NCBI RefSeq assembly: GCF_001262015.1
Contig: NZ_CP012074.1
Location: 578,501 to 642,500, forward strand
Reading direction: 5' to 3'
Source: Prevotella fusca JCM 17724
Lineage (GTDB): Bacteria > Bacteroidota > Bacteroidia > Bacteroidales > Bacteroidaceae
Length of the DNA: 64,000 nt
Below are positions 3,300 to 39,285 of the stretch, in pieces. Position 1 is the stretch's first letter, and each line of letters starts with the position of its first letter. Under the pieces are notes generated by a model that was given only the letters and a program-made list of their open reading frames with translations, had not been told where the DNA came from and did not search any database. A program made the translations under genes and the position numbers.

Positions 3300-3518
3300 T
3301 TCAATAGATGCTCAATAGCACTTCAATTAACCCTTAATTGGAGTTCAAAAGATGCCCTTTTGAGGTCTTACTAACGCCCTTTTGACGTCTAACTAAGCAC
3401 CTTTTCTTGCATGTCTTTATAATAGTTTGATTCATAGATGATTACAAAACAAGGAAAAAAGGCTTTTAAAGCCAGTTTTTGAGCATGGGTGGCAGTGAAA
3501 TGTGTAAATATATTTCAC
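3300..3518 (+). repeat. Family B dispersed repeat, short copy 1, with 22-bp tandem units
   Basis: Imperfect tandem units start at 3310, 3332, 3354, 3376 and 3398, exactly 22 bp apart. Two neighbours share GCCCTTTTGA and end in CTAAC/CTAAG. Small inverted repeats cross unit borders (CAATTAA/TTAATTG and TCAAAAG/CTTTTGA). The array ends in CACCTTTTCTTGC and, about 100 bp later, in GTGTAAATATATTTCA. The same order of parts recurs near 12.7 kb and 39.1 kb, and the array itself near 30.2 and 62.5 kb. No gene is visible in the 3109-3674 gap besides this and the terminator. Confidence 0.85.
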
Positions 3519-3674
3519 AGTTTAAGATGGGCTTTTCCACCAATTCGTTAATAGGATAGTTAATCCTATGGTTGGAATATGACACAGTTCATTAGATGTA
3601 CAGTTGGAGTACTCCGTGAAAGCTCATTGCATTGCTTCAGAAGCTCTATGCAATATAATGGCTACATACTTTAT

Positions 3675-6551
3675 CTATTTTAGCTTTTCAATTAAGTACT
3701 TACCCGTCAGACTCTCCTTGCAGCGAGCCACTTCCTCTGGTGTTGCAGCAATTATGAGATGTCCCCCCTTGTCGCCACCGTCGGGACCAAGGTCGATGAC
3801 GTGGTCGGCACACTTAATGACATCGAGGTTATGTTCAATGACCAGTATACTATGTCCACGGTCAATAAGCGCGTTGAAAGCGTGAAGCAGACGCTGGATG
3901 TCGTGGAAATGCAGACCCGTTGTCGGCTCGTCAAAGATGAAGAGTGTTGGTTCCTGCTGTTCCTGTCCGATGAAGTAGGCAAGTTTTACGCGCTGGTTTT
4001 CACCGCCGGAGAGGGTTGAGGAACTTTGTCCGAGCTTGATGTAGCCCAGCCCGACATCCTCCAAAGGCTTCAGTCTGTTGACGATTGCCTTGCGCTTATG
4101 CTCGCTGAAGAACTGGATTGCCTCTGATACGGTCATGTTCAGTACGTCATTGATATTCTTTCCTTGGAACTGCACGTCAAGGATCTCACGCTTGAAGCGT
4201 TGTCCGTGACATTCCTCGCATTCCAGAACAAGGTCTGCCATGAACTGCATCTCCACCGTGATGACACCTGCACCCTTACATTCCTCGCAGCGTCCGCCAT
4301 CGGTATTGAACGAGAAGTATTGCGGTGTGAAGCCCATCTGTTTTGAGAGTTGCTGCTCCGCAAAGAGCTTTCTTATTTCGTCGTATGCCTTTACGTATGT
4401 TGCAGGGTTCGAGCGTGTACTCTTGCCGATAGGGTTCTGGTCTACAAACTCTACGTGTTTTATCTGTTTCCAGTCGCCACTGATGGATGAGTATTCGCCT
4501 GGTGTTTCGGCAACCTCGTCCAGGTGACGCTTGAGGGCAGGGTAGAGGATTCCCTTTACGAGGGAGGACTTGCCGCTACCGCTGACTCCCGTCACCACAG
4601 TAAGGACGTTCAGGGGAAACTTCACGTCTACTCCCTTGAGATTGTTCATGCGTGCGCCCTTCAGTTCTATTGCCATGTTCCAGGGACGACGACTTACAGG
4701 TGTGTCGATAACCTCTGTTCCTGTGAGGTACTTGATGGTGTATGAATGTGGGTACTGTTCCAGTAGTTTCTTTGAAACAGCATTTTTTTTATCCTTGATG
4801 GCTCCTTCTATCCGCTTTATATCAGATACTTTACCTTCAAATACAATCTCTCCACCGAGTCGTCCGGCATCTGGTCCGACGTCAATCAGATAATCGGCAG
4901 CACACATAATCTCCTCATCGTGCTCCACGACAACCACTGTGTTTCCCAGTGCCTGAAGTTCCTTCAGCACGTGAATGAGGCGGTCGGTATCCCGACTGTG
5001 CAAGCCAATGGAAGGCTCGTCAAGTATGTAGAGTGAACCGACGAGGGAAGAACCGAGGGAAGTTGTGAGGTTGATGCGCTGACTCTCACCACCACTGAGC
5101 GAGTTCGACTGGCGGTTAAGGGTGAGATAGCCCAGTCCTACATCCAGAAGGAACTGCAGACGGCTCTTTATTTCGGTCATCAGTCGTTTGCTTACCTCCT
5201 GCTCATGCTCCGTTAGTTCCAGCCTGTCGAACCATTCCTTGAGATTAATGACTGGCATATCAACAAGGTCGGTGATAGCCATACCGCCTATCTTCACCCA
5301 TGTTGCCTCCTTTTTCAGCTTCGTGCCGTGGCAGTCTGGACATACCGTCTTACCACGATAGCGGCTGAGCATGACACGGTATTGAATCTTGTACTGGTTT
5401 TCCTTTACCATCTGGAAGAAGGTGTCGATACAGATGCGCTCGTGTATATCTTTCTTCCTTTCGCTGGGCAGTCCCTTCCAAAGGCATTCTTTCTCGGTCT
5501 TTGTCAGTTCAAAATAAGGTTTGAAGATGGGAAAGTTATCTTTTGCAGCACGTCGGCAGAATTCGTCTTTCCATGTAGCCATCTTATCACCGTGCCAACA
5601 CTGTACGCATCCATCATAGACAGAAAGAGAGGAATCGGGGATAACCAGTTTCTCGTCAATTCCAATGATGCGTCCGAATCCTTCACAGGTAGGGCAGGCA
5701 CCGAGGGGGGAATTGAACGAAAACATATTGTCATTAGGTTCTTCAAAACGCATTCCGTCAGCTTCAAAGCGTGTTGAGAAGTCGTAGGTGAGTTTGGCTG
5801 GAAGAATCATCAATTGCATGTTGCCGTCGCCTTCATAGAAGGCTGTCTCACAGGAGTCGGTGAGGCGTGTCAGTGTGTCTTTGGAACTGTCAACCGACAG
5901 ACGGTCAATGACGAGATAGATGTTCTTCGCCTGGTCTTCAGCAGTGCCTTTACTGTCATCGTCGGCTGGGTTCTGTGCAAGCCAGTCTTCTATGCGGATG
6001 AAGTCATTGTCCACATAGATGCGGGCATATCCTTCCTGCATTTCCATCTCAAGTTGGTTCTGTATGCTTCGTCCTTCGACAATGTGGAGCGGCGCAAGAA
6101 TACAGAACTTTGTGCCTTCCGAGTACGTCATCACCTTCTCAATGACGTCTTCAACGGAGTGATGTTTCACTTCTTCGCCAGATACAGGGCTGAAAGTGCG
6201 CCCTATGCGAGCATAGAGAAGGCGGAGATATTCATATATTTCGGTAGAAGTGCCCACTGTCGAGCGTGGATTACGTGAGATAACCTTCTGCTCGATGGCA
6301 ATGGCCGGAGGAAGCCCTTTGATGAAATCTACCTCAGGTTTTGACATTCTGCCTAAGAACTGACGGGCATAAGCCGAAAGACTCTCCACATATCGGCGTT
6401 GTCCTTCAGCATAGAGTGTGTCAAAAGCAAGCGATGATTTGCCAGAACCCGATACGCCGGTAATGGCAATGAATTGACCTTGAGGGATTTTTACATCAAT
6501 ATTCTTCAGGTTGTTCACCTTGGCACCTTTTACCTCAATATATTTGTTCAT
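3675..6551 (-). CDS. uvrA: UvrABC excision nuclease subunit A
   Basis: DNA-damage-recognition ATPase of nucleotide excision repair; it acts as a dimer, loads UvrB at lesions and then leaves. The 958-residue protein has the whole UvrA layout: a first Walker A (GVSGSGKSSL, residues 32-41), zinc-binding cysteine pairs (CPTCEGFG, CPDCHG), a first ABC signature (LSGGESQRI, about residue 490), a second Walker A (GVSGSGKSSL, about 660), a third zinc module (CEECKGAG then CEECHG) and a second signature (LSGGENQRV, about 850) with FIFDEPTTGLH. I chose the ATG at 6551; an in-frame TTG three codons upstream (6560) is less likely. It is transcribed alone, divergently from the small secreted protein at 6705. 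Confidence 0.96.
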   Translation of the reverse strand: MNKYIEVKGAKVNNLKNIDVKIPQGQFIAITGVSGSGKSSLAFDTLYAEGQRRYVESLSAYARQFLGRMSKPEVDFIKGLPPAIAIEQKVISRNPRSTVGTSTEIYEYLRLLYARIGRTFSPVSGEEVKHHSVEDVIEKVMTYSEGTKFCILAPLHIVEGRSIQNQLEMEMQEGYARIYVDNDFIRIEDWLAQNPADDDSKGTAEDQAKNIYLVIDRLSVDSSKDTLTRLTDSCETAFYEGDGNMQLMILPAKLTYDFSTRFEADGMRFEEPNDNMFSFNSPLGACPTCEGFGRIIGIDEKLVIPDSSLSVYDGCVQCWHGDKMATWKDEFCRRAAKDNFPIFKPYFELTKTEKECLWKGLPSERKKDIHERICIDTFFQMVKENQYKIQYRVMLSRYRGKTVCPDCHGTKLKKEATWVKIGGMAITDLVDMPVINLKEWFDRLELTEHEQEVSKRLMTEIKSRLQFLLDVGLGYLTLNRQSNSLSGGESQRINLTTSLGSSLVGSLYILDEPSIGLHSRDTDRLIHVLKELQALGNTVVVVEHDEEIMCAADYLIDVGPDAGRLGGEIVFEGKVSDIKRIEGAIKDKKNAVSKKLLEQYPHSYTIKYLTGTEVIDTPVSRRPWNMAIELKGARMNNLKGVDVKFPLNVLTVVTGVSGSGKSSLVKGILYPALKRHLDEVAETPGEYSSISGDWKQIKHVEFVDQNPIGKSTRSNPATYVKAYDEIRKLFAEQQLSKQMGFTPQYFSFNTDGGRCEECKGAGVITVEMQFMADLVLECEECHGQRFKREILDVQFQGKNINDVLNMTVSEAIQFFSEHKRKAIVNRLKPLEDVGLGYIKLGQSSSTLSGGENQRVKLAYFIGQEQQEPTLFIFDEPTTGLHFHDIQRLLHAFNALIDRGHSILVIEHNLDVIKCADHVIDLGPDGGDKGGHLIIAATPEEVARCKESLTGKYLIEKLK

Positions 6552-6623
6552 ACTTTTCAACTTAATTCTATAATTTATCCTTACAGACTCTTAAAAGAGT
6601 TTTAGAGGAATAATGGTAATCTG

Positions 6624-6631
6624 CAAAATTA
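6624..6631 (-). promoter_or_regulatory. Likely -7 element of the uvrA promoter
   Basis: On the minus strand the bases read TAATTTTG, matching TAnnTTTG, 73 bp before the uvrA ATG. No good TTTG is found at the -33 position. It lies next to the divergent promoter at 6641-6672, so the two would compete for space. Confidence 0.45.
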
Positions 6632-6640
6632 CAAAAAAAC

Positions 6641-6672
6641 TTTGGTTCTTTCTGATATTTACTTTATATTTG
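6641..6672 (+). promoter_or_regulatory. Bacteroidetes-type promoter of the gene at 6705
   Basis: TTTG at 6641-6644, a 20-bp spacer, then TATATTTG at 6665-6672, a full match to the TTTG / TAnnTTTG consensus. Transcription would start near 6679, 26 bp before the ATG at 6705. This rules out a longer N-terminus beginning at 6642. Confidence 0.75.
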
Positions 6673-6704
6673 CAGGCAATATTTATTTTTTAAAGAACAC
6701 AATT

Positions 6705-7109
6705 ATGAGAGTTAAGAAATTATTGGTTATCGCTTTGATAGCCTTCCCTATGATGGGTATGGCACAGAGTTCATACGAGCAGATTGGTGAGTCTGCAAAC
6801 AGTACACAGTTTGAGAACAAGAGGGTTAATCCAGCTTACCAGCGATGGTTGAGCCAGTACGAAGAGTGTGGTCGTAGAATCAACGAGGTATCTGAGCAGT
6901 ATCAGCGTGAGGTGGACAAGCGGGGTTATCCAAAAAAGAAGACCGTGAAGGCAAAGATGGAATTGGTAAGCCTGTATATTGACCTCTTGATACAGGAACG
7001 TGACTCGCCAGAGTTGAATCAGAATCTTGATATTGATAAAGTTAACAGCAAGATTAGTATGTGGCAGAGTCAGCTTGATGGTCTGGCAGCTTTGTTGAAG
7101 AAGATTTAA
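6705..7109 (+). CDS. Small secreted protein of unknown function
   Basis: A 134-residue protein that I do not recognise. It opens with a signal peptide (MRVKKLLVIALIAFPMMGMAQ, cleavage after residue 20 or 21). The mature part is charged and mostly helical, with YQRWLSQYEECGRRINEVSEQYQREVDKRGY followed by a basic PKKKTVKAK stretch and a helix up to the end (LAALLKKI), so a short coiled coil in the periplasm is possible. There is no lipobox and no membrane anchor besides the signal. The start at 6705 is fixed by the promoter 33 bp upstream. It is transcribed alone; a family A repeat begins 25 bp after the stop. Confidence 0.7.
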   Translation: MRVKKLLVIALIAFPMMGMAQSSYEQIGESANSTQFENKRVNPAYQRWLSQYEECGRRINEVSEQYQREVDKRGYPKKKTVKAKMELVSLYIDLLIQERDSPELNQNLDIDKVNSKISMWQSQLDGLAALLKKI

Positions 7110-7134
7110 CCAGATGTTATTATCTTATATTGTT

Positions 7135-7419
7135 GTCCGATAAAACTAAAACAGCATGTTTCACTATATGGAGTCTAAATTTAACAGATAGTATCGTTTT
7201 GTCTATGAAATAGTAAGTTGCATAATCAAATGTCTTTTACTTGCTTTGGTAGTACAACTCTTTTCTAACTAAAAGTTGTTCCCATCCCGGCAACATGTTG
7301 TAAGGTATTCAGTACTCAACACCATTGGTGTTTACCAATAACACCATATGTGTTTACCAATGGCACCATATGTGATGGGCAAGAGCACATTGGTTGAAAA
7401 CGGCAAGAGAAGTTCATTG
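7135..7419 (+). repeat. Family A dispersed repeat, copy 1
   Basis: About 285 bp, beginning with TGTCCGATAAAACT and containing GGTAGTACAACTCTTTTCTAA and CAACATGTTG. Its right half holds imperfect tandem units at 7320, 7342, 7364 and 7386, exactly 22 bp apart, each starting CACC or CAC. The first unit carries the palindrome AACACCATTGGTGTT. Related copies on + lie at 18.06 and 33.29 kb, and on - at 45.05 and 55.12 kb. Confidence 0.88.
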
Positions 7420-7503
7420 TGGTCTTAATATATTGTGTAATAAGACACTATAGACTAAGTGGTGGGTGTGGAGTATTTATCGGACAGCACTGATTATAAT
7501 GCG

Positions 7504-7543
7504 AGAAGAGCTGTATCTGTTCGCAGATACAGCTCTTCTTTTG
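7504..7543 (+). terminator. Strong hairpin with T-tail
   Basis: A perfect 16-bp stem (7504-7519 with 7524-7539, AGAAGAGCTGTATCTG and its complement) around a 4-base TTCG-type loop, followed by TTTT. It faces the + strand and would end any transcript running from the secreted-protein gene through the family A repeat. It is also 7 bp past the stop of the minus-strand gene at 7550, but no T-run exists in that direction. Confidence 0.75.
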
Positions 7544-7549
7544 GTTATC

Positions 7550-8215
7550 TTACTGCTCTTTTCCATCGGTATTCAGCAGTATTTTCTTTTTTCCAATCCT
7601 CGCCTCGAAGTAGGGAGGTTCGTCTCTTAATGAGATACCGTCATAGATGAATGGTGCGACGACAGTGTCCTTTCCGTCAGGAAGTATCAATCCGAGCTTG
7701 CCATCCAGCTGTGCTATGAGCGGCATTGTCCGCAGGTCGTCCACGTAGACATAGCATGTGCGCAGGAACTCATATTTAGGTTCAACGAGTGTACGCCCTC
7801 TGTGGTCGAGGATGCCGAACTTACCCTTGCGCTCTATCACCTCATGATACTGGATATAAATCTCACGGATAAGGTTCAGGTATCTTACCATCTTGCGCTT
7901 GTCGTTGACCAGTGTGACGAGATATTCAAAGGTGTCAGAGTAGTTGGCCATTGCGCGAGCTAATACAATCTTCATGTCCAATCCCTTGATAGCCTTGCGG
8001 TTCAGGTCGATGTATCGTGCAATAGCAGTTTCCTTTTCCTTCATAGGCAGGTCTTTCAGATGTTCCTCAAAGCGTAGCATCTGTTGCTTGCTACCGTGCA
8101 TAGCCTTGATATATCTGTGTATCTGTCGTCCCATCTCCATGCAGACGAAATGGCGAATCTGCTGTTCCTCTATCGGGTCAGCGTATTCCTGGTTGAAGTT
8201 ATCTTGCGTAATCAT
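7550..8215 (-). CDS. WG-repeat-like protein of unknown function
   Basis: A 221-residue cytoplasmic-looking protein without signal peptide. Residues 1-125 are helical and charged (MEMGRQIHRYIKAMHG, LARAMANYSDTFEYLVTL). From about residue 128 there are two or three WG/KWG-like beta repeats of the form GKFGILDHRGRTLVEPKYEFL and GKLGLILPDGKDTVVAPFIYDGI, where the usual W is F or L. WG repeats are found in many Bacteroidetes proteins and have no single function. It has its own promoter (8241-8272) and no operon partner. Function unknown. Confidence 0.7.
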   Translation of the reverse strand: MITQDNFNQEYADPIEEQQIRHFVCMEMGRQIHRYIKAMHGSKQQMLRFEEHLKDLPMKEKETAIARYIDLNRKAIKGLDMKIVLARAMANYSDTFEYLVTLVNDKRKMVRYLNLIREIYIQYHEVIERKGKFGILDHRGRTLVEPKYEFLRTCYVYVDDLRTMPLIAQLDGKLGLILPDGKDTVVAPFIYDGISLRDEPPYFEARIGKKKILLNTDGKEQ

Positions 8216-8240
8216 GGGCTTTGTCTTTTATTGTTTTTGC

Positions 8241-8272
8241 CAAAGTTACTGACTTTTCGTTGTTCTACCAAG
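8241..8272 (-). promoter_or_regulatory. Promoter of the WG-repeat-like gene
   Basis: On the minus strand a -33 CTTG (8269-8272, 3 of 4 matches), 20 bp, and a -7 TAACTTTG (8241-8248). It lies 26 bp upstream of the ATG at 8215. Confidence 0.6.
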
Positions 8273-8458
8273 AATTTACATGACTTTTTTAGTCCCGTTT
8301 CCTTACCTCTTTCCCTAAAGGAAGAGCTTGCAATGAGTTGTTTGTGGTGTCTTGCGCAGTAAGGTGGCGGGAATAGCAGTGTAGTAGAGGTTATATCTAT
8401 GATTTTTAGAGCGTTATAGCGAAATGTCTTTCTCCTCTCGAGTGGAGTAAAGAGGGAT

Positions 8459-8836
8459 TTAGAAATTCAGCTCCACATTCTTGCCAAATGGTGCAAGTGA
8501 TAGTCCTGCCATCTTGAAGTGCTGTTTGGCAAAAGGGATTCCGATGATTGTGATAGTGAGGAGAATGCCGAATAAGATGTGATTGAGACATGCCCACAAT
8601 CCACCGAAGATAATCCAGATGATATTGAGTGGAACTGTGATGCAGCCAGAAAGACTTTCACCTTTCTTTACTTCAGCTCCGAAAGGCCACAGGCACAACA
8701 GACCGAGCTTGAATGTCTGTAGGGCGGCAGGTATGCCGATGATGGTTATGGCAAGTGCCAAACTGCCGGTGAAGTAACCAATGGCAGCTTCCAAGCCGCC
8801 GAATATCCACCAGATGATATTTCCAAGAATACGCAT
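8459..8836 (-). CDS. yccF: YccF-family inner-membrane protein
   Basis: A 125-residue protein built of two matching halves, each with a motif of the form GNIIWWIFGG / LNIIWIIFGG, a long hydrophobic helix ending in TIIGIP, and a short QxFKLGLLCLWPFG / QHFKMAGLSLAPFG segment. This internal duplication with two IIGIP motifs is typical of the YccF (DUF307) family of small inner-membrane proteins, whose role is unknown. About four membrane helices are expected. It stands alone; the next gene upstream starts 265 bp away. The gap 8837-9101 holds only weak similarity to a repeat at 21.6 kb. Confidence 0.87.
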   Translation of the reverse strand: MRILGNIIWWIFGGLEAAIGYFTGSLALAITIIGIPAALQTFKLGLLCLWPFGAEVKKGESLSGCITVPLNIIWIIFGGLWACLNHILFGILLTITIIGIPFAKQHFKMAGLSLAPFGKNVELNF

Positions 8837-9015
8837 GATTTATTTGTTGATGTATAGACTGTGTGTCTGTTTGAAAGTTTACGAGTTAAGTTTCTGATAT
8901 ATTCTCAGCATGCAAGCAGTATCTGATTCGTCCTTGTCCTGTGGGTGTTTTTGTCTGCTTATTGCTTGTGATGATGTAGCCAATGCTTTGGAAGATTCTT
9001 GCTGTATATCAATGC

Positions 9016-9046
9016 CTGATAACTACATTGCCAGTGTTTGGTGACA
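9016..9046 (+). repeat. Possible partial copy of the type C repeat
   Basis: Thirty bases (CTGAT...ATTGCCAG...TTGGTGAC) match the second and third units of the array at 21635-21670 at about 22 of 30 positions. Short and uncertain. Confidence 0.35.
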
Positions 9047-9101
9047 AATCATCCTTTCTTTGGAATCCTTCTTCTGAATCCGAAACTTTGGTTGCTTCTG
9101 T

Positions 9102-9611
9102 CTATATTGTTTCTGTGATTTCTTCCAGTGTTTTCCGTTTCTTCTCATTTATAGGACAATCGTCGGCAATGTGTCCGATTGGTATGATGGCGACGGGCTC
9201 ATAACCTGTATGTGGAAAGGTTTCCTTCAGTTTGGCAACATTGAAGTTGCATACCCAGCAGCTTCCTAAACCACGTTCTGTTGCAGCCAGACAGAGATGC
9301 TCTGTAGCAATGGCAACATCAATATCACCATGTTGTTTACCGTCTTCCTGCCGTATCCAGTTTGTTTCAGGCTCTCGCAGGCAGATGAAATAAAGCGGTG
9401 CCGACTTGAACCATTCACGGTTGTAGCATTCCTGTAGTTGCTTGCGAGCCTCTTCTGACTTTACAACGAGGAACTTCCACGGCTGTCTGTTGACAGCTGA
9501 TGGTGCCATACGTGTTACCTCGAGGATATAGTTCAAGTCTTCTTCTGAGACAGGCTCATCAGTATATTTGCGTGCGGAAAATCGCTTTTGGGATAATTCT
9601 AAGATGGTCAT
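9102..9611 (-). CDS. Nitroreductase-family FMN-dependent oxidoreductase
   Basis: A 169-residue protein with the nitroreductase fold signatures: an N-terminal FMN phosphate-binding motif (RFSARKYTDEPV, residues 10-21), APSAVNRQPWKFLVV (about 36-50), a central region that binds flavin between two monomers (ATEHLCLAATERGLGSCWV, about 100-118) and a C-terminal PVAIIPIGH strand. The family forms homodimers with two FMN and reduces nitro compounds, quinones or enones using NAD(P)H. The natural substrate cannot be told from sequence. The length is normal for the short branch of the family. It stands alone; the 9612-9757 gap shows only a degenerate CCCTTTAGGG palindrome. Confidence 0.88.
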   Translation of the reverse strand: MTILELSQKRFSARKYTDEPVSEEDLNYILEVTRMAPSAVNRQPWKFLVVKSEEARKQLQECYNREWFKSAPLYFICLREPETNWIRQEDGKQHGDIDVAIATEHLCLAATERGLGSCWVCNFNVAKLKETFPHTGYEPVAIIPIGHIADDCPINEKKRKTLEEITETI

Positions 9612-9757
9612 GATGTGGAAATGGGGAAGTTGCTTTAACCCTTTAGGGAAGGAAAGGATGGGTGTCGGTATGTGAGAGTGGTGGTGATAAGTTGTGATAG
9701 GCGATGATAGGGTTGTAGCCCGGTGAGATGTGGAGGGGCTGTCTTGTAGCGGGATGC

Positions 9758-10795
9758 TTACAGCAGTTCCTCCTTATAATACAGTATCGCTTTGATGGCA
9801 ATCTGTTCAGCCTCTTCGATGGTACAGTTCAGTCTGCCACCTGATGCGTCAGCATGTCCGCCACCATTGAAGAACTTTGCTGCCATAGGCTGACAGTGAA
9901 AACCATTGCAGGAACGAAGACTCACCAATACGGTCTTCGGTTTCTCGGTATCTTCACGTAGTGAGATACTCAGCTTGAGTCCTTTGATCTGCTGCGGAAT
10001 GTTCACAAGTCCCTCCATGTCACCTTTAATGAAATGGAATTGTGCCATCTCTTCCTTTGTTACCGTATAGTAGGAAGCGTGCAATTCCTCGATGATTTTC
10101 ATCTTGTTGAGAATAATATGTGCACGCAGGCGGAGAGCATTGGTTGAGTAATTATGGAACACACGGTTATAAATCTCATCCTTGTCAATACCCTTTGTCA
10201 GAAGCAGTCCGATAATATAAAATATCTCTGGGCGTGAAGAATTATAGGTGAAACCGCCTGTGTCAGTCATCATACCGCAATAAATGCAGGATGCACACTG
10301 CCTTGTCATCTTGTCGAACCCGTCTAATTGGTTGATTAGCCGGAAGACAATCTCACATGTGCTTGACATTTCTGGATGTGAAACCGTCAAAGCATTGTCT
10401 GTTTTAGGCTCTAAGTGATGGTCAATAAGCAGGCGAGGGGCTTTGGAAGCCTCAAGTACCTCCTGCATGGCTTCCACTCGTGAGCTTTGGTTGAAGTCGA
10501 GGCAGCATACGAGGTCGGCTTCCCTGAAAGCCTTTTCAACCTCCTTGGGGCGTCTGTCGTAGCGGATAACAGAATTATGACCAGGTAGCCAATGCAGGAA
10601 ATCGGGTGTGGCGTCAGGCATACATACTTTAATATTCGTCTTGCCAATCTGACTCAGATAGTGCATCCATGCCAGTGACGAACCTGTAGCATCACCGTCT
10701 GGCGACTTATGGGCGCAGATTACGATGTTTGTTGCATTAGAGAGGAGTGTGCGTAGTGTCGCAATTTCTTCCTGGCTCAGTAGGTTTAATTCCAT
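9758..10795 (-). CDS. DHH-family phosphoesterase (NrnA-like oligoribonuclease / pAp phosphatase)
   Basis: A 345-residue DHH-DHHA1 protein. Metal-binding motifs are visible in order: CAHKSPDGDATGSSLA (about 27-42), CCLDFNQSSR (about 96), the DHH motif LLIDHHLEP (about 122-130), GMMTDTGGFTYNSS (about 173), and the DHHA1 substrate-binding motif GGGHADASGG near residue 320. NrnA-type enzymes degrade 2-5 nt RNA fragments and dephosphorylate pAp; Bacteroidetes lack the E. coli Orn enzyme, so this gene probably finishes RNA turnover. It follows the nucleotidyltransferase on the same strand, but the terminator at 10863-10940 lies between them, so it is probably transcribed on its own. Confidence 0.88.
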   Translation of the reverse strand: MELNLLSQEEIATLRTLLSNATNIVICAHKSPDGDATGSSLAWMHYLSQIGKTNIKVCMPDATPDFLHWLPGHNSVIRYDRRPKEVEKAFREADLVCCLDFNQSSRVEAMQEVLEASKAPRLLIDHHLEPKTDNALTVSHPEMSSTCEIVFRLINQLDGFDKMTRQCASCIYCGMMTDTGGFTYNSSRPEIFYIIGLLLTKGIDKDEIYNRVFHNYSTNALRLRAHIILNKMKIIEELHASYYTVTKEEMAQFHFIKGDMEGLVNIPQQIKGLKLSISLREDTEKPKTVLVSLRSCNGFHCQPMAAKFFNGGGHADASGGRLNCTIEEAEQIAIKAILYYKEELL

Positions 10796-10862
10796 TATAG
10801 CTATAAGCGTTGATAGGGGGATAGGACTGCTATGCCCATCGTGTAGATATGAGATATAAGTG

Positions 10863-10940
10863 AAAAGCCCTGCCCGTATATCCGTCTTATACCTTAATAT
10901 ATAAAGAGGTATGTGCGGAGAAGCTATGCGGGCAGGGCTA
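10863..10940 (-). terminator. Long stem-loop terminator of the nucleotidyltransferase gene
   Basis: On the minus strand an 11-bp GC-rich stem (AGCCCTGCCCG with CGGGCAGGGCT) closes a loop of about 50 bases, itself with an inner stem (ATACCTCTTTATA... region), and is followed by TTTTCA. It begins 4 bp after the stop of the gene at 10945. Confidence 0.7.
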
Positions 10941-10944
10941 AATG

Positions 10945-11905: not shown

Positions 11906-13313
11906 ACAAAAAGATGGGATATTTTGCTATTTTGAGTTATGAATTATGAGGTTCATCCGACATTTGGAGTGATAACCAATGAATGATACTCAAATTTTGA
12001 GATAAAAATCTCTTCATAACCTTCTCATTAATAAATGGATTTAGACTAAATGAAGTGAATTTATAAGTTATAGTAACTCCTGCACTACTAATTAGCACAT
12101 TATGATTATAATTCTCCGTATATAAAGGGTTTAACATATATGAGCAATGGTGTAAGTAGTTGATTATTAATAACTAATTATTATCACTCCAAATTCCGGA
12201 AGACCCAATTATGAGAGTTGAGCTTGAAGTTAGTCGGAATTTAGCAACAAATGAACTGGTGTTTTAGAATGGTCTGGGATTCTTCGGGCAGCCTGTACTG
12301 TTGTTCCCGACAGGTTGTCAGGGATGTTCAAATGAAGTTGTTAATATCTGATAAAGAATAACAGAATCTCTGCAAGTCTTTGCTTATCAGAAAAACAGGT
12401 ACATTCAGCCAGTGGTGGGGCTTAACTTTTTTATATCGAACAGCAACCTTTAAAATCGCTTTTCATCATAAGACAAGGATTATGTGTCCATAAAAATACT
12501 CCAATAATCCTTTCAGTCATATCTTTTCTTACAATGATTTGAAGAGAGAACTTTGCTTGTGTCAAGTTCGGGTTGTTCATCATCACTGTCCCTCAATAGT
12601 AACCATTCATCATCAATCATCCATCACTTTGTAATGTTTTTTTTATCCCCGGAAAGCGTATAGGTGCTTAATAGCATTCCAATTAAGCCTTACTTGCTGT
12701 CCAATAGATGCCCTTTTGAGCTCTAATAGATGCCCTTTTGAAGCCTAATTAAGTACCTTTTCTTTTGCTGTTTTGTAATCAGCTGATTGTCTGTTAGTTA
12801 TCCGTTTGTTTAAAAAGACTGTTTTATCTCTTTTTTAAGTGGTGACGAAAGCTGTATGTGTAAATATTTTTCAGCAGTTAGTCGCAACTTATTCTATCTT
12901 GCAAAACGCTGTTTTTTGCAAATGCGGTTAAGATTGAATGAAGTCAAGGACTTTATTTTGGTTGAGTCTATGCACGGTTTAAAAGGCTTGTGGAGAAAAA
13001 CGATATTGTGATTGAAGATAAGCTGAAGCATAAGCAGAGATGATAGAATGGTGTTTGTCATGTCCAAGATAAAGTAGTATGTGGCTGTTTCAGATAGTAT
13101 TTGCACAGTATCTGAGCCAAAAGGCTACGTGTGTGAACAGCATGAATCTTATCCATGGAGACAGGAAAGATTATCGTAAACAGATAAATTTAACAGTAAT
13201 ATCACATTCTTTAGATGATTTGTAAATATCATATTATCATGTAGTTATCAAGTGATTGAAACTTGTTTGAAAGAATTAAGCCTTTGAAAAGTGCCTAAAA
13301 AAAGACAGAAAAG
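11906..13313. other. 1.4-kb gene desert
   Basis: No reading frame here has coding character: the open frames are short, A/T-rich and lack recognisable motifs. It holds a family B repeat (12655-12873). Around 12293-12335 a short G/C-richer segment can fold (GGGCAGCCTGT pairing loosely with ACAGGTTGTC). Nothing else is apparent up to the tRNA promoter. Confidence 0.7.
12655..12873 (+). repeat. Family B dispersed repeat, short copy 2
   Basis: Units of exactly 22 bp start at 12666, 12688, 12710 and 12732, with a fifth, diverged one at 12754. Two carry GCCCTTTTGA; the array ends in TACCTTTTCTT. The tail TGTGTAAATATTTTTCA near 12857-12873 matches the tails of the copies at 3.3 and 39.1 kb. Same strand as copy 1. 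Confidence 0.85.
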
Positions 13314-13550: not shown

Positions 13551-13552
13551 CA

Positions 13553-18054: not shown

Positions 18055-18320
18055 TGTCTGATAAAACTTAAATACCATACGCTCCAATGCGGAATCTATA
18101 TTCAAATAGATAGCATCGTGTTGTCTTTGGAGAAGTAAGCCCCCTGGTCAAATAAGGTTTGTTTACTTTTGGTAGTATAACTCTTTTCCGACTATAAGTT
18201 GCTTCCATCCTTGCAACATATTGCAACGTATTTAGCCCTCAACACCATTGGTGTTTACCAACAACACCATGCGTGATGGGTAACAGCACATCGACAGGAA
18301 AAGATAAGAGAGGTTTTTAA
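18055..18320 (+). repeat. Family A dispersed repeat, copy 2
   Basis: About 265 bp starting TGTCTGATAAAACTTAAAT, with GGTAGTATAACTCTTTTCCGA and CAACATATTGCAA. It has one 22-bp unit fewer than copy 1 in the CACC array (units 22 bp apart from CACCATTGGTG). It sits between the ilvE terminator and the ferritin promoter. Confidence 0.87.
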
Positions 18321-21612: not shown

Positions 21613-21678
21613 TCTGGTAATTGGATTACCAACGTCTGGTCATTGTATTGCCAGCGGTTGGTAATCTTTCAATTACTT
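21613..21678 (+). repeat. Type C 22-bp tandem array
   Basis: Three imperfect units of 22 bp start at 21613, 21635 and 21657. The first two begin TCTGGT and end ACCAACG / GCCAGCG. The first holds an inverted repeat TGGTAAT/ATTACCA with a 3-base loop. The array lies in the 253-bp gap between the helicase and PBP1A genes. Same period as families A and B but different sequence. Confidence 0.65.
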
Positions 21679-30166: not shown

Positions 30167-30547
30167 ACATGGTCTTTTGGCTTCTAAAAGACGCCCAATT
30201 GGCTTGCAATAGATGCCCTTTTGAGGTCTAACTGACGCCCTTTTGAAGTCCAATTAAGCACCTTTTCTTGCGCTACTTTATAACCAACTGATTTACTGTT
30301 GGTTGCAAACTTGCTTTTTACACGTATTTTTGCCTTTATCCGTAGGTATTTTACCCGGAATTATGTCATGATTTTTCAATCTGTCGTCTGTCTTTTCAAA
30401 GTATTGACATGAAAAGGTTTTCTGCATCGGAGGATGATAATAAAGTAGGTAGCCAAGACCGTCTTGGCTATGTTTTTATTTAATAAATAACTTCGGTTCA
30501 TCCGTTAAAGCCATACGAAAAGTGTCCACGCATTTAACGGAAGAACC
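30167..30547 (+). repeat. Family B long copy 1 (381 bp)
   Basis: It opens with a 22-bp array (units at 30193, 30215, 30237 and 30259, two with GCCCTTTTGA), then unique sequence, then a perfect 9-bp hairpin AGCCAAGAC/GTCTTGGCT followed by ATGTTTTTATTT, and ends in a 15-bp inverted repeat (GGTTCATCCGTTAAA with one mismatch) over 30495-30547. Near-identical to 62190-62571 on the other strand. Further weak 22-bp units may follow at 30590-30630. Confidence 0.87.
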
Positions 30548-30740
30548 ATAATTAGGCTGTAACTAAGAACTAATTGAACCGCAATTAAGGCTTGATTGGG
30601 ATGTAAACAGGCATTAATAGTTTTACACGTAAGGGATTTGTTTTTAAAAAACATGTTCATTTTTGATTCCATAATCTTTCCCTGTATTACTGTGATTGTG
30701 CTGTGTTTTTTTATGATAGGAGGAACTAAAGAGTGTATGT

Positions 30741-30829: not shown

Positions 30830-30834
30830 AGTTA

Positions 30835-33150: not shown

Positions 33151-33192
33151 ACGTTTTAAGTAGTATTTCTCCTTTGTGAATAAAAGGATAAT

Positions 33193-33230
33193 ACAAAGCC
33201 AGACTGGGTTGCAGTCTGGCTTTGTTGTTT
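33193..33230 (+). terminator. Terminator of the esterase gene
   Basis: ACAAAGCCAGACT pairs with AGTCTGGCTTTGT around GGGTTGC, then TGTTT. Confidence 0.85.
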
Positions 33231-33287
33231 ATGAAGACGGACTAAATAATGTATTCCTCTGTATTCTATAATTATAAAGTTGGTAGC

Positions 33288-33552
33288 TGTCCGATAAAAC
33301 TTAAGCAATTTGTGTTCTAATGTGGAATCTCTTTTAAACAGATAGCTTTGTGTTGTCTTTAGAAAAGTAGGTCAACTAATCAAAAAAGTCTTGTTTGCTT
33401 TCGGTAGTACAACTCTTTTCTAACAACAAGTTACTTACATTCCGACAATATATTGTAAGGTGTTTTGCACTCAACACCACTGGTGTTTACCAACACCACC
33501 ACGTGTGTTGGGCAGCAGCACGTCAGCTAAAGATGAGCAAAGAGGTTCATTA
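33288..33552 (+). repeat. Family A dispersed repeat, copy 3
   Basis: Starts TGTCCGATAAAACTTAAGC and keeps GGTAGTACAACTCTTTTCTAA, then a CACC array with 22-bp spacing (units starting at CACCACTGGTG and CACCACGTG). It lies between two convergent genes. Last copy on the + strand in this window. Confidence 0.87.
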
Positions 33553-33558
33553 TAAACA

Positions 33559-34122
33559 TTATAATATACATTGTAATATACTAATACATTCATCCACTTT
33601 TATGTCAGTCTCTTCGGTCGGAATACTTGGAAGAAATTGGAAAGGGAAACAGATACCGAGCTTATAGGCATTGGTGAGAAGAGGCAGAAAGCGGTCATAA
33701 TAACCTTTTCCACGACCAAGACGGTTACGTTGCGCATCAAAAGCCATGCCTGGGATGAGTGCGAAATCTATAGACGAAAAGTCGGTGAAGGCTTCACCGG
33801 TAGGTTCAAGAATTCCGTAAGTACTTGTCTCAAATGCTTCTGAGCCATGATAGAGGCGGAGTTCCATCTCAGTATCACTGATGACAACGGGAAGTAGAAC
33901 TGTTTTCCCATCGGTATGGAGCTGCTGGATAAGGTCGTGTGTATAGACCTCATCAGGCAGAGAATTATATAGAAGAACTGTCTTGGATTCCTTCAGACGC
34001 GGGTGGCCCAGGACATGCTCAATAATCGGACGGGACTGCTCTATCAGCTCTTCCGTAGAAAACTTTTTTTTACGTGCTCTCACCTCTTTCCGTAGGGCTG
34101 CTTTATCAAACTGTTTCATCAA
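33559..34122 (-). CDS. 5-formyltetrahydrofolate cyclo-ligase
   Basis: A 187-residue enzyme that turns 5-formyl-THF into 5,10-methenyl-THF using ATP. Motifs: the basic N-terminal KAALRKEVRARKKKFS (residues 6-21), LYNSLPDEVYTHDLI (about 51-65), GKTVLLPVV and, near the C-terminus, the metal/nucleotide-binding LIPGMAFDAQRNRLGRGKGYYDRFL (about 121-146), the standard GxGxGYYDR signature. The start overlaps the stop of the S41 protease gene by 4 bp (ATGA), so both are on one mRNA with translational coupling. Family A copy 3 follows the stop. Confidence 0.93.
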   Translation of the reverse strand: MMKQFDKAALRKEVRARKKKFSTEELIEQSRPIIEHVLGHPRLKESKTVLLYNSLPDEVYTHDLIQQLHTDGKTVLLPVVISDTEMELRLYHGSEAFETSTYGILEPTGEAFTDFSSIDFALIPGMAFDAQRNRLGRGKGYYDRFLPLLTNAYKLGICFPFQFLPSIPTEETDIKVDECISILQCIL

Positions 34123-35795
34123 CGTCGGGGAGTTGTTTTATGTAAGGAGTCTGTCTGACGATGAGCCTTCTGTTGTGAATTAAGCAACAGGATAGAAGGG
34201 CTGCGGAAGACGTTTACAGCAGCCTTTATCGTAGTATCATCTCGGTTCACATATTCTATCCATGCCTGTTCGTCAAGAATGTTATATATGATGCGACTGT
34301 TAAGATAGTCTTGTAGGAGCGAGTGTGAACGCATAATCATGAGATTGCGCCGACGCAGTCCATTCTTTTCTGCAAAGTTGACGAAGTCACTCACAAGGTT
34401 CTGATGTTCCAGATAGTTAGCCAAAGGCAGCATCTTGCCAAAGCCACTGAGTTTCTTTCTGTTGCTGTCCGTATAATTAAAAGCATATTGGAGTATCAAT
34501 CCGCTCATTACCGCCTCCTTATAATAAGAGGTTACCTTTGAAGTGTCTTCAGGAACGAATGTGTCAGGTGTAATACCACCACCACCATAGACGATACGTC
34601 CATTCTGTGTATGATAGGCTGGGCCTTCGTGTTTGATGCTATCCTGTGAGAAGAATTCACCATGCTGGTAACGTGTGAGAATATCTTTCTCATAATCAGC
34701 ATTGTCACCAGGTTTGAACGGCTTTTGTATGCAGCGCCCCGATGGAGTGTAATAACGTGCGATAGTCAGTCTTATCAAGCTGCCATCATTAAACTGTATC
34801 TGTTGTTGTACCAGTCCTTTACCAAAGGAACGGCGTCCGACAATGACAGCTCGGTCATTGTCCTGCATAGCACCTGCAAAGATTTCTGCAGCCGAAGCTG
34901 AGCCCTCATTGATAAGTACTACCATTGGAATATGCTGGTAGCTACCTTTGCCATCGCTACGGTAGTCAATACGAGGGCTCTTTCTTCCCTGCGTGTAAAC
35001 AATAAGGCGATTCTTGGGCAGGAACTCATTTGACATCTGCACAGCCGACTCCAAGATGCCTCCACCATTATCTCGAAGGTCAATAACTAAATGATCAGCT
35101 CCCTGGATGTTCAGTGTCTGTAAAGCTGCAAGCATTTCAGCATATGTACGTTCGCCAAAACTCTTGATGCGGATATAACCTGTAGAGTCGTTGAGCATAT
35201 AAGTTGCAGAAACACTCTTCACCGCAATGTCGCCACGTGTTACGGTGAACATCTTTACACCTTTCTCACCATACCGTTTAACACCTATCTTTACCTTTGA
35301 GTCTTTCGGTCCTTTAAGACGGTGCATAGCCTCCTCGTTGGTTACCTCTTTACCCACAAACGCTTTACCGTTAACACTCACTACCTTGTCACCTGCCAAC
35401 AGTCCTGCCTTGTCAGCAGGTCCGTCCTTGATGACATTCTGTATTCGTAACGTATCCTGTCGGATATTGAATTCTATTCCCACACCAGAGAAAGAACCCT
35501 TCAAATCGTCTGTAGCCAACTGCACATCCTTTGCACTGATATAGACTGAATGTGGATCAAGTTCTGATAGAATCTCTGGGATAGCCTTGTCTACAAGCTC
35601 GTCTATATTGACTGAATCGACATACTGATCGTCAATAATATGTAGCAGATTGCTCAGCCGACTGCTACCGCTATTGATGATATTCAGTCGGTTACCAGAG
35701 AAATGATTGGCATAGAAAGTACCAATAAGAATACCGATGACAACACAAAGTGCCATCAGCAGTGGCATGAAACGGTTATTCTTGTTTTGATTCAT
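34119..35795 (-). CDS. S41-family C-terminal processing peptidase
   Basis: A 558-residue periplasmic serine protease with one N-terminal membrane anchor (MPLLMALCVVIGILIGTFYA, about 10-29). A PDZ domain (about 90-190; GVGIEFNIRQDTLRIQNV, GLLAGDKVVSVNG) precedes the catalytic domain: LVIDLRDNGGGILESA, the nucleophile Ser in NEGSASAAEIFAGA (about 305) and the Lys in VGRRSFGKGLVQ (about 330). The family uses a Ser-Lys dyad and trims or degrades proteins with non-polar C-termini. A C-terminal region of about 150 residues follows. I chose the ATG at 35795 over the one at 35810. It overlaps the next gene by 4 bp. Confidence 0.92.
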   Translation of the reverse strand: MNQNKNNRFMPLLMALCVVIGILIGTFYANHFSGNRLNIINSGSSRLSNLLHIIDDQYVDSVNIDELVDKAIPEILSELDPHSVYISAKDVQLATDDLKGSFSGVGIEFNIRQDTLRIQNVIKDGPADKAGLLAGDKVVSVNGKAFVGKEVTNEEAMHRLKGPKDSKVKIGVKRYGEKGVKMFTVTRGDIAVKSVSATYMLNDSTGYIRIKSFGERTYAEMLAALQTLNIQGADHLVIDLRDNGGGILESAVQMSNEFLPKNRLIVYTQGRKSPRIDYRSDGKGSYQHIPMVVLINEGSASAAEIFAGAMQDNDRAVIVGRRSFGKGLVQQQIQFNDGSLIRLTIARYYTPSGRCIQKPFKPGDNADYEKDILTRYQHGEFFSQDSIKHEGPAYHTQNGRIVYGGGGITPDTFVPEDTSKVTSYYKEAVMSGLILQYAFNYTDSNRKKLSGFGKMLPLANYLEHQNLVSDFVNFAEKNGLRRRNLMIMRSHSLLQDYLNSRIIYNILDEQAWIEYVNRDDTTIKAAVNVFRSPSILLLNSQQKAHRQTDSLHKTTPRR

Positions 35796-36098
35796 AAAAG
35801 CCTCACCCACGCTCTCCCGTATAAGAAAGATGCATTGTCAGGGTGCTCGTTGATTTACTTGTTATACATTGTTCTATTATAAGGCTCGGTTCTAAAGAGG
35901 ATAAGTGAAAAGAGGAAATCTCAATAAGCCATGGAAGCCATAGGAGGCAAATAGGGTAAATTAGGTTAATGAAGTAAATTAAATTAATTCATCATATTCA
36001 GCAATTTAGTCTTGTCAGGCTTATATTTCCAATGCCAAATAACCCTCAATACTTAAAAGCCTACTGGCTAATTATATTCTTTTTCACTCAAGAAAGAC

Positions 36099-36584
36099 TC
36101 AACGGGTGCCGTCAAGACTCCTGTATTCCACTTCAATTCCTGCTCGTGTCAGCAGGTCTATACCATCTGTAAGGCGATACTTCTCGGCATAAACAACGCG
36201 ACGGATACCAGCCTGTATGATAAGTTTTGCACACTCAATGCAAGGCGATGCTGTTACATAAAGCGTTGACCCCTCACTGTTATTACCACTTCGGGCAAGT
36301 TTTGTGATAGCATTTGCTTCTGCATGAAGGACATAAGGTTTCGTTACGCCCGTCTCATCTTCACACACGTTCTCGAATCCACTTGGTGTTCCGTTGTAAC
36401 CATCGCTGATAATCATCTTGTCCTTCACTACCAATGCGCCCACCTGCCGGCGTTTGCAATAGGAATTCTCTGCCCAGATACGTGCCATACGAAGGTAACG
36501 ATAATCGACAGCAGTCTGTCCTCTCCCTTCTCTAATGGAAGCGGAAGATGTTACTGCTTGCTCAGTAATATGTTCGTTGTTCAT
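36099..36584 (-). CDS. dCMP deaminase family protein
   Basis: A 161-residue zinc-dependent deaminase. The catalytic zinc motif is complete: HAEANAITKLA (His and catalytic Glu, about 86-96) and ASPCIECAKLIIQAGI (two zinc Cys, about 112-127). The N-terminal MARIWAENSYCKRRQVGALVVKD and DGYNGTPSGFENVCED match deoxycytidylate deaminases (ComEB-type) that make dUMP from dCMP for thymidylate synthesis. The neighbours in the same direction are an S41 protease, 304 bp downstream, and an M3 peptidase, 123 bp upstream, so it may be cotranscribed with the latter. Confidence 0.92.
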   Translation of the reverse strand: MNNEHITEQAVTSSASIREGRGQTAVDYRYLRMARIWAENSYCKRRQVGALVVKDKMIISDGYNGTPSGFENVCEDETGVTKPYVLHAEANAITKLARSGNNSEGSTLYVTASPCIECAKLIIQAGIRRVVYAEKYRLTDGIDLLTRAGIEVEYRSLDGTR

Positions 36585-36707
36585 TATCTTTATAGGATTT
36601 TATAAGCGATGATAAACATGAATAAGCTACGATAGGGGAGAATTAGAGGGGAAAAGCCAGACTATAGCTAACAGCCACACCTTATCCCTTGGAGAGGTCC
36701 GAGGAAA

Positions 36708-38798
36708 TTACTGTGTCTTGAGAAGTCCGTCCCTTTCCTTTAACGCATCAATCGTCGGCTCCCCTCCACGGAAACGCTTGTAAAGCGTCATAGGATGTTC
36801 AGTTCCTCCACGTGAGAGGATATTATCACGGAAACGCTGGGCAGTAGCAGGATTGAAGATTCCTTCTTTCTTGAATACACTGAAAGCATCAGCGTCAAGA
36901 ACCTCTGCCCACTTGTAACTGTAATATCCTGCAGCATATCCACCTGCCATAATATGAGAGAACTGTACCGTCATACAGGTATCCATACGCTGCTCATCAA
37001 TGATAGCTGGTGCCCATGCTTTCTTCTCGAACGGGATAATGTCATCTGTAAACTCATCTTTATGAGTATAGTAAGCCATATCCAACAAGCCGAAGCTGAC
37101 CTGTCTCAGACAGGCCGTTGCAGCACCGAAATTACGGCTGGTAATAACTTTCTCAATCAGTTCATCAGGCATAGGTTCACCTGTCTGATAATGGAAAGCA
37201 AAGGTACGCAGGAACTCTTTTTCTATAGCAAAGTTCTCCATAAACTGCGAAGGAAGTTCTACAAAGTCCCACCATACATTCGTTCCTGACAAACTCTCGA
37301 AGCGGGTATTGGCAAATATACCATGTAGAGAATGCCCGAATTCATGCAGGAAAGTCTCCACCTCACCTATTCTCAAAAGTGCCGACTTGTCCTCTGTAGG
37401 CTTGGAGAAATTCATCACGAGTGACACATGTGGGCGTACATTCGTACCATCCCGCTCTATCCACTGTCCCTGAAACTCCGTCATCCATGCCCCATCACGC
37501 TTTCCTTTGCGTGGATGGAAGTCAACATAAAGTACAGCCAGGTAGCTGCCATCCTTGTCAAACACCTCATACGGCTTCACGTCAGGGTGGTAAACAGGTA
37601 TCTCCTTATTCTCCTTGAAGCTGATACCATAGAGACGTGTAGCTAAACCGAAGACGCCTTTGATAACATTTCCCAATTCAAGATAAGGGCGAAGCATCTC
37701 TGGGTCAAGGTCATATTTCTTCTTCTTCAGCAGCTGGCTGTAATAAGCTACATCCCACTGTTCCATCTTGAAACCGTCACCTTCTTCTTCTCGTGCTAAT
37801 GCCTCTATTTCTTCACGTTCCTTGATGGCAGTCGGCTTATATGCCCCAATGAGGTCGTTGAGAAGTTTGTACACGTTCTCAACCGTTGTTGCCATACGAT
37901 GTTTCATCACATAATCGGCAAAAGTATCGTAACCGAGGAGCTGAGCCATTTCACGGCGAAGATTAACCAGACGCTTGCAAAGTTCAAGGTTATTCGTGTC
38001 ATTATCTTTTATGCAGAGCGTATTGCGTGCCATGTAAAGGTCTTTACGCAGTTCGCGCTGCGTGCTGTACATCATAAACGGACCATAGCTTGGAGCATCC
38101 AAAGTGAAGACCCAGCCCTCCATTCCATGCTCTCTTGCAGCTTCCTGCGCAGCCTCACGTGCCGTTTCGGGGAGTCCGTCAAGCTGTTGTTCATCCGTAA
38201 TATGCAGCGTATAGGCTTTATTCTCTTTCAGCACATTCTGTGAGAACTGCAACGAAAGCATGGATGCCTCTTCCGTGAGCATGCGCAGACGTTCCTTTCC
38301 TGCTTCATCAAGCAGTGCACCACTGCGAACAAAACCCTCATAGCTTTTCTCCAGCAGACAGTTCTCTTCTGGTGTCAGCTCACGATGATGCTCATATACA
38401 TGCTTGACACGCTCGAATATCTTTGGGTTCAAGCTGATGTCATTACTGTGTTTGGTAAGGATTGGACTCATCTTCTGCGCCAATGCGTCCATCTCGTCAT
38501 TGGTCTCGGCACTGAGCATATTGAAGAATACACTCTCCACACGATTCAGAAGATCATAGTAATGCTTGCGTCCTTTGACCTCATCCTCTGGTATAATCGT
38601 GTTCTCAAAGGTGGGTGGTTCTTCAGGATTGTTGATAATCTTCTCAACCTGTTCGTCCTCACGGCGGATACCTTCCATCATTGCCTCCTCGTAGTCGGCA
38701 AGCGTGATACGCTCGAATGGTGCCGTGTAGTGCGGTGTATCATAAGGTAGGAAGAAAGGATTTACACGTTCTTTCTTCCCTGATGTATTATCTGTCAT
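36708..38798 (-). CDS. dcp: M3-family metallopeptidase (peptidyl-dipeptidase Dcp-like)
   Basis: A 696-residue zinc peptidase. The catalytic motif is FLHEFGHSLHGIF (HEFGH, about 478-490) with a downstream Glu (about 506-514), and PHVSLVMNFSKPT and LEVSFLFHEFGH-type context of the M3A subfamily. These cytosolic enzymes cut oligopeptides, Dcp taking dipeptides from the C-terminus; this suits a peptide-fermenting species. No signal peptide. The ATG at 38798 (MTDNTSGKKERV) is chosen because the -7 element at 38829-38836 would place the RNA start after an upstream in-frame codon at 38831. Confidence 0.93.
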   Translation of the reverse strand: MTDNTSGKKERVNPFFLPYDTPHYTAPFERITLADYEEAMMEGIRREDEQVEKIINNPEEPPTFENTIIPEDEVKGRKHYYDLLNRVESVFFNMLSAETNDEMDALAQKMSPILTKHSNDISLNPKIFERVKHVYEHHRELTPEENCLLEKSYEGFVRSGALLDEAGKERLRMLTEEASMLSLQFSQNVLKENKAYTLHITDEQQLDGLPETAREAAQEAAREHGMEGWVFTLDAPSYGPFMMYSTQRELRKDLYMARNTLCIKDNDTNNLELCKRLVNLRREMAQLLGYDTFADYVMKHRMATTVENVYKLLNDLIGAYKPTAIKEREEIEALAREEEGDGFKMEQWDVAYYSQLLKKKKYDLDPEMLRPYLELGNVIKGVFGLATRLYGISFKENKEIPVYHPDVKPYEVFDKDGSYLAVLYVDFHPRKGKRDGAWMTEFQGQWIERDGTNVRPHVSLVMNFSKPTEDKSALLRIGEVETFLHEFGHSLHGIFANTRFESLSGTNVWWDFVELPSQFMENFAIEKEFLRTFAFHYQTGEPMPDELIEKVITSRNFGAATACLRQVSFGLLDMAYYTHKDEFTDDIIPFEKKAWAPAIIDEQRMDTCMTVQFSHIMAGGYAAGYYSYKWAEVLDADAFSVFKKEGIFNPATAQRFRDNILSRGGTEHPMTLYKRFRGGEPTIDALKERDGLLKTQ

Positions 38799-38828
38799 TT
38801 TCTTTTTGCTTTCTCTTAATTTAAAGTA

Positions 38829-38836
38829 CAAAGATA
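38829..38836 (-). promoter_or_regulatory. -7 element of the M3 peptidase gene
   Basis: TATCTTTG on the minus strand, 31 bp before the chosen ATG. The -33 position is not a good match. Confidence 0.55.
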
Positions 38837-39069
38837 ACTCAAAAAAAGGAGAAACACTATATATAAAGGTGGATTTTAACGCAAATTTGTTTCTTGGTAG
38901 AGGAACAGTTGATATTTGGCGAACTCGATAATAATAATGAAGCCAATAAGAAACCCTGGGAACATCTTTCTGTTTTCAGAAATCAGTTGAACAACTATTG
39001 CTAATTATCCGATGTCAGCCATTCCCTATCAATATGAATTGTGTCAAAAAAAATCATAGCAAGGAAATC

Positions 39070-39285
39070 TATTGATGCTTAACTGCATTCAAATTAAGCC
39101 TTAATTGACGTGCAAAAGGTGCTTGATTAAGTCCTAAGTAGTGCTTAATTGAAGTCCAATTAGGCACCTATTCTTGCATGACTTTATAATCGTCTGTTCT
39201 TCTGATAGTTACGAACACGTTGTTTTGTTCTTGTTTTCTCTGTTTTTAAACAAAAGTGGCAATCATTTATGTAAATATATTTCAA
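39070..39285 (+). repeat. Family B dispersed repeat, short copy 3
   Basis: Units start at 39077, 39099, 39121, 39143 and 39165, exactly 22 bp apart, starting GCTTAA/CCTTAA/GCTTGA and ending AAG/AGG. It is more diverged than the others (no GCCCTTTTGA) but keeps CACCTATTCTTGCATGACTTTATAA and the tail TTATGTAAATATATTTCA. The remaining part of the 38857-39375 gap shows no gene. Confidence 0.82.

Follow-up and report, generated by a model that had tools for sequence, protein, structure and literature searches.

A shared 22-bp period in intergenic repeat arrays of unrelated sequence in Prevotella

The intergenic DNA of Prevotella fusca JCM 17724 carries short tandem arrays whose units, of unlike sequence, recur at a spacing of exactly 22 bp. 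The arrays lie in noncoding DNA, have dyad-symmetric consensus sequences in many sequence clusters and, in one family (family A), keep their half-sites between sister genomes. On balance, we consider them probable short runs of dyad-symmetric predicted sites for homodimeric DNA-binding proteins. Our genome sample comprised the window (the whole 64,000-nucleotide stretch of DNA analysed) and 40 stretches of 20 kb, together 864 kb of a 3.26-Mb genome in two contigs. In the noncoding part of this sample, lag 22 yields 103 arrays and its multiples 44 and 66 yield 78 and 16, against a mean of 2.67 and a maximum of 10 at lags between 12 and 120 that are not multiples of 22; the adjacent lags 21 and 23 give 8 and 6. 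Coding DNA contains no excess at lag 22 (3 arrays, mean 3.01). An earlier sequence-only reading of the window had inferred the period from seven arrays and pointed to intergenic autocorrelation as its check, and the noncoding excess confirms it; the lag and coding controls rule out chance or composition as the source. Scaling by proportion suggests about 390 lag-22 arrays genome-wide.

The same period recurs in relatives. Five congeneric genomes have a lag-22 density of 5.4 arrays per 10 kb of noncoding DNA (41 arrays); the sister genomes G148 and G162 have 5.3 (82 arrays), and 14 loci with Prevotella titles have 5.6 (18 arrays). In 66 further loci, which are weaker matches to the same protein with titles nearly all from Prevotella or related genera, the density is 4.25 (46 arrays), and other lags have a mean of 3.3 and a maximum of 14, at lag 21. 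Six genomes of other families (260 kb) contain 2 lag-22 arrays, or 0.63 per 10 kb noncoding, where other lags have a mean of 0.66. The peak is found in other Prevotella and in the most closely related loci, not in this small sample from other families, and the 22-bp rule is wider than first reported.

Within the window, the seven arrays named earlier are correctly placed, and lag 22 is the top self-match among lags 15–30 in all seven (identity 0.47–0.65, z 4.5–7.7 against 2,000 shuffles; Table 1). Tandem Repeats Finder reports period 22 at 3354, 7318, 12703, 21612, 45082 and 30177/30215, covering six of the seven regions. It gives no period-22 row at the array at 39077, the weakest of the set, which falls below the threshold of the lag-22 scan and is picked up at lag 44. 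By eye, the outermost named units at 3398, 39165, 7386 and 45154 are weak. Five more arrays are present, three of family A (near 18243, 33475 and 55140) and two of family B (near 30546 and 62478). MITE terminal repeats are listed in the window only at 30495, 30547, 49914, 62190 and 62242, with none near the family B array at 3310; terminal repeat and alignment of copies place the right end of the MITE around the 30193 array at 30547. The type C array is a single copy in the 864-kb sample, with a dyad-symmetric consensus (p = 0.010).

Table 1 Arrays with a 22-bp period in the window
Feature	Position	Strand	Lag-22 self-match
Family B array, five named units	3310..3419	+	identity 0.57, z 6.5
Family A array, CAC-N5-GTG at 7320, 7342, 7364	7320..7407	+	identity 0.65, z 7.7
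Family B array, four units	12666..12753	+	identity 0.65, z 7.5
Family A array, newly listed, sites 18243, 18265	18243..18309	+	best lag 22, identity 0.48
Type C array	21613..21678	no strand	identity 0.59, z 5.1
Family B array within MITE copy	30193..30280	+	identity 0.59, z 6.1
Second B-like array, immediately past MITE end	30546..30633	no strand	best lag 22, identity 0.48
Family A array, newly listed, sites 33475, 33497	33475..33541	+	best lag 22, identity 0.55
Family B array, five named units	39077..39186	+	identity 0.47, z 4.5
Family A array, sites 45100, 45122, 45144	45088..45175	-	identity 0.59, z 6.4
Family A array, newly listed, sites 55157, 55179	55140..55205	-	best lag 22, identity 0.59
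Family B array in MITE copy, terminal repeats 62190 and 62242	62478..62566	-	best lag 22, identity 0.63

A single spacing spans many unrelated sequences. The 103 arrays of the sample divide into families B (48), D (22), A (20) and E (6) and seven singletons, type C among them; several of the other singletons look chance-like by eye. Family A is embedded in a longer common sequence context. Family D, compact and palindromic, consists of four units with inverted ends, and its copies have no flanks in common. Contigs 1 and 2, sampled over 464 and 400 kb, contain 18 versus 2 arrays of family A, 20 versus 2 of family D and 10 versus 38 of family B. When arrays from relatives are included, 289 arrays form 76 sequence clusters, 62 of them single-member, and the original claim of one spacing over unlike sequences extends to all 76. 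With one array taken per cluster, the consensus shows dyad symmetry at p ≤ 0.05 in 42 of the 76, where about 4 are expected, and in 28 of them p reaches its floor of 0.01. Array by array, 82 of 201 pass the 0.05 threshold, with family B weak (9 of 48). The axis falls on a base in 35 of the 42 symmetric clusters, parity being recorded for the observed clusters only. Any dyad axis of a 22-bp repeat is accompanied by another 11 bp away, so a base-centred axis permits a half-site spacing of 11+11 rather than 10+12.

Family A, in which CAC-N5-GTG is repeated at 22 bp, provides the clearest view of a unit. Pairs of this motif at distance 22 number 40, 36 and 37 in three genomes; distance 44 also occurs, and distances 21 and 23 are absent from all three. 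The inner gap is 5 throughout, save for 2, 3 and 4 extra pairs in the three genomes. G148 and G162 are 95.9% identical in their longest collinear block and each is about 84% identical to this genome in one gene. Between these sisters the core of family A differs at 7 of 438 positions (1.6%), against 34 of 365 in the N5 gap and 56 of 803 in the linker (7–9% for the rest of the unit; one-sided p = 3 × 10−7; 73 units, 22 locus pairs). Unfiltered units taken by phase give 6 of 252 core versus 62 of 666 other substitutions. All 57 array sites that are intact in at least one sister are intact in both, although units within one array are not independent in this count; wholesale differences between the sisters break alignments, and arrays affected by them are absent from the family A conservation counts. 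For comparison, solitary sites between genes, drawn from six palindromic motifs, are kept in 46 of 75 cases, and arithmetic at 6.15% divergence predicts joint neutral survival of six bases in about 68% of sites. Likewise, the information content of family A units in this genome predicts divergence between G148 and G162 (rho −0.68; 146 units, with palindromic sites counted on both strands). We read family A as arrays of predicted sites for a dimeric protein, apparently under selection. The earlier proposal that the arrays are binding sites is thus upheld for family A, in which half-sites are kept and gap and linker are not, but gains nothing from family B, in which information content is unrelated to divergence (rho 0.05) and a guessed core, TTR-N5-YAA, varies more than the other positions. 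Family D entered this test with 25 units only and was without power.

Bipartite palindromes with an N5 gap are a known shape of restriction enzyme site, and CAC-N5-GTG has that shape. We nevertheless regard it as extremely unlikely that the motif is a restriction–modification recognition site kept for methylation: outside arrays, single CAC-N5-GTG sites enjoy no special conservation (kept in 2 of 4 intergenic cases, a control of four sites only, and in 37 of 53 coding ones), a 22-bp spacing is foreign to restriction sites and the motif, in three spellings, was not found in the open-access literature searched. Across 276 genomes of the genus, two-unit CAC-N5-GTG matches number 144 here, 226–290 in seven relatives, 21–82 in nine genomes, 6–9 in three and 0–5 in the remainder, with at least 20 in 17 genomes. 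The reversed pattern gives 0–4 matches in the same genomes except in G355 (39) and G048 (25), which perhaps contain arrays of opposite half-site order.

We propose that homodimers would dock on short runs, mostly of three to six units, of dyad-symmetric sites. Half-sites would alternate in orientation about every 11 bp to give a full site every 22 bp, all sites would lie on one side of the helix and dimers could sit side by side. A protein would read the arrays, and families B, C, D and E and those of other species, which we liken to family A because they share its geometry, would be of the same kind with other readers. Dyad symmetry would also suit RNA or cruciform hairpins, such as mRNA 3′-end stabilisers or terminators, as would the enrichment of arrays between converging genes, where a crude gene caller places 35 of the 92 that it could classify, against 23% of intergenic length. 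The match between the two arms of a unit (0.429), however, is no higher than that between arms of different units (0.440; 289 arrays), pairing of family A flanks does not exceed independence, and Rfam at gathering scores detects six tRNAs and a small SRP RNA in the window and nothing at arrays. The lack of arm covariation favours DNA recognition, and we consider a hairpin origin very improbable.

The converging-gene bias, to which family D contributes 12 converging, 9 co-directional and 1 diverging copies by the same crude gene caller, may reflect function or mere promoter avoidance. Dimers docked on the arrays would more plausibly have a chromosome-level role, as roadblock, insulator or organiser, than control single promoters. 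The sequence-only reading had suggested one protein type, for example a nucleoid or segregation protein, or a family of paralogous regulators. A single type is not supported, as cores differ from family to family, and neither a nucleoid nor a segregation protein was found for the arrays. Contig 1 has one perfect and one two-mismatch parS site 800 bp apart, not linked to arrays; the search also returned two other two-mismatch sites, and a control pattern gave 2. HU-HIG proteins, with six matches above the cut-off, three of them strong, were rejected as candidate readers with no demonstrated link to arrays.

As wholes, the arrays are not conserved. In 28 arrays within aligned blocks of G148 and G162, substitutions amount to 6.9%; the figure is 6.2% for the remaining intergenic sequence and 4.3% for coding sequence. 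Twenty of these arrays have no indel, three have cancelling indels, two differ by a net 22 bp and three by 1–2 bp; one of the last three adjoins a difference of about 130 bp, no multiple of 22. The aligner split indel events, and the two 22-bp net changes are one single event and one of 21+1. The two 22-bp changes agree with the prediction that units are gained and lost in multiples of 22. The idea that arrays are protected from indels is not supported, with changes of 1–2 bp in three of 28 arrays and 10.1 events per kb, split events counted, versus 8.2 in other intergenic DNA. Larger changes also occur. A six-unit array (L306) in G148 is missing at the same place in G162, and family exchange at a spacer is seen once between the sisters (where G148 has a MITE with a family B array, G162 has a family D element) and once between this genome and both sisters (family B at 39077, family A in the orthologous spacers). 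Among 11 spacers mapped to G148, an array is present in both genomes at 1, here only at 1, in G148 only at 2 and in neither at 7. Spacers of P. jejuni, P. multiformis and P. denticola have diverged too far for junctions to be placed, and the arrays listed there include none at lag 22 where type C would be.

Turnover of this kind raises the alternative that the arrays are selfish or neutral MITE-like elements, non-autonomous and without host function, in which 22 bp is a transposase-binding or slippage unit; such elements would be of the BrickBuilt or PINSR sort. Copies of a family are scattered, arrays are gained and lost between species and family D is compact with inverted ends. In the 864-kb sample, a MITE terminal repeat lies no more than 700 bp from 24 of the 48 family B arrays, which indicates that part of the repetition is dispersal; together with quick turnover, the lack of constraint on family B speaks for a selfish share. 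Several observations weigh against this as a full account. Fixed orthologous copies of family A keep their half-sites, which selection for mobility would not explain as it would lapse once a copy is immobile, and the period is common to 76 unrelated clusters. Family D has no clear target-site duplication (longest exact flank repeats of 0–6 bases, without a chance control). No autonomous partner of the B MITE was found: its terminal repeat was not found at seven of eight ISL3 loci and at the eighth looks like part of an adjoining MITE copy. A wholly selfish or neutral origin consequently seems to us rather unlikely, and the predicted dimer-site arrays may themselves spread as small dispersed elements, in family B inside a MITE as well.

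A broader form of the dimer-site reading can be offered only tentatively. Prevotella and close relatives might possess a lineage-wide system of scattered site arrays, some hundreds in each genome, on which paralogous dimers placed every 11 bp would mark or organise the chromosome with changing specificity; the geometry would stay fixed as sequence is replaced between species and loci through fast co-evolution of sites and readers. We found no report of the 22-bp rule in the open-access literature searched. That one spacing unites unlike repeats across a bacterial lineage suggests a class of chromosomal site array not recognised so far. Such a class would account for part of the intergenic repeats in a major group of mouth and gut bacteria and would offer a test case of a DNA-site system that changes sequence and keeps geometry. 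For the putative protein, a bait is at hand in the conserved CAC-N5-GTG core.

The nearest known kinds of repeat are BrickBuilt, PINSR and BIMEs, none of which matches every feature tested here. BrickBuilt of Porphyromonas gingivalis is described as a MITE with a 23-nt minisatellite, a leader and a tail (PMC4596501). Like the arrays here, it consists of abutting tandem units of about this length, is intergenic and dispersed, and gains and loses units between strains. As to MITE structure, 24 of 48 family B arrays lie near a terminal repeat with no insertion sequence partner found, family A copies share context and family D flanks are not shared. By that description BrickBuilt differs in being a single family with 23-nt units and terminal repeats near-identical to IS elements, whereas our arrays have 22-bp units in unrelated clusters, many dyad-symmetric, and conserved family A half-sites; a 23-nt unit is not matched by the lag spectrum (lag 22, 103 arrays; lag 23, 6). 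PINSR, a 188-bp repeat with 177 and 184 copies in the Prevotella intermedia/nigrescens group, is likewise high-copy and intergenic in Prevotella, and is described as non-protein-coding and non-MITE (PMC4755523). Section 3.4 of that report gives no 22-bp period, and the comparison with PINSR is by this description. REP and BIME sequences are described as high-copy extragenic palindromes, 20–40 bp long and in BIMEs set at regular spacing and in alternating orientation, that serve as sites for several proteins (PMC3733652, PMC2817692). The arrays here share such traits, being 22-bp extragenic units in many copies (103 in 864 kb) with palindromic consensus in 42 of 76 clusters, although in only 82 of 201 arrays taken singly. 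An origin through RAYT (Y1_Tnp, PF01797) was rejected, with 0 matches in this genome and 5 of 14 control genomes positive. Unlike REP and BIME sequences, the arrays described here hold one 22-bp period over unrelated sequences and, in family A, a bipartite CAC-N5-GTG core.

Across the window and the 40 sampled 20-kb stretches of the P. fusca genome (L031-L070), the array families are divided between contigs C1 and C2 as 18/2 for A, 20/2 for the compact four-unit palindromic element D and 10/38 for B. One window MITE carries a B array and directly abuts a second, B-like array, as though the B-bearing MITE had landed within or next to a pre-existing array; the terminal repeat of the MITE also occurs as a solitary copy.

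The sister species G148 and G162 differ at several places by a second MITE-like insertion, roughly 200 bp long and with termini resembling AACCCAAATCGGTCATTAGA, which one of them carries and the other lacks; this insertion contains no obvious 22-bp array. G148 also carries a 22-bp array of six units, one of which differs in its palindromic arms, flanked on both sides by inverted terminator-like hairpins; this array is missing from the corresponding place in G162.

The reversed control for the family A core, GTG-N5-CAC at 22 bp, gave 25 matches in G048 and 39 in G355, two of the 276 genus genomes searched, and these perhaps represent arrays of opposite half-site order.

Contig C1 holds a perfect match to canonical parS and, 800 bp from it, a copy with two mismatches; among the 20 best copies of D on this contig, 5 are no more than about 50 kb away from the perfect site.

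Coordinates of MITE-related features, the G148 array and parS
Feature	Sequence	Position
B array inside the MITE, through to the adjoining array	window	30193-30633
MITE end	window	30547
Second, B-like array	window	30546-30633
Solitary MITE terminal repeat	window	49914
~200-bp insertion, presence/absence	G148 vs G162	gaps near A 75044, C 112627, C 144026
Six-unit array	G148, locus L306	12412-12560
Perfect parS	G000 (P. fusca), C1	1528881-1528896
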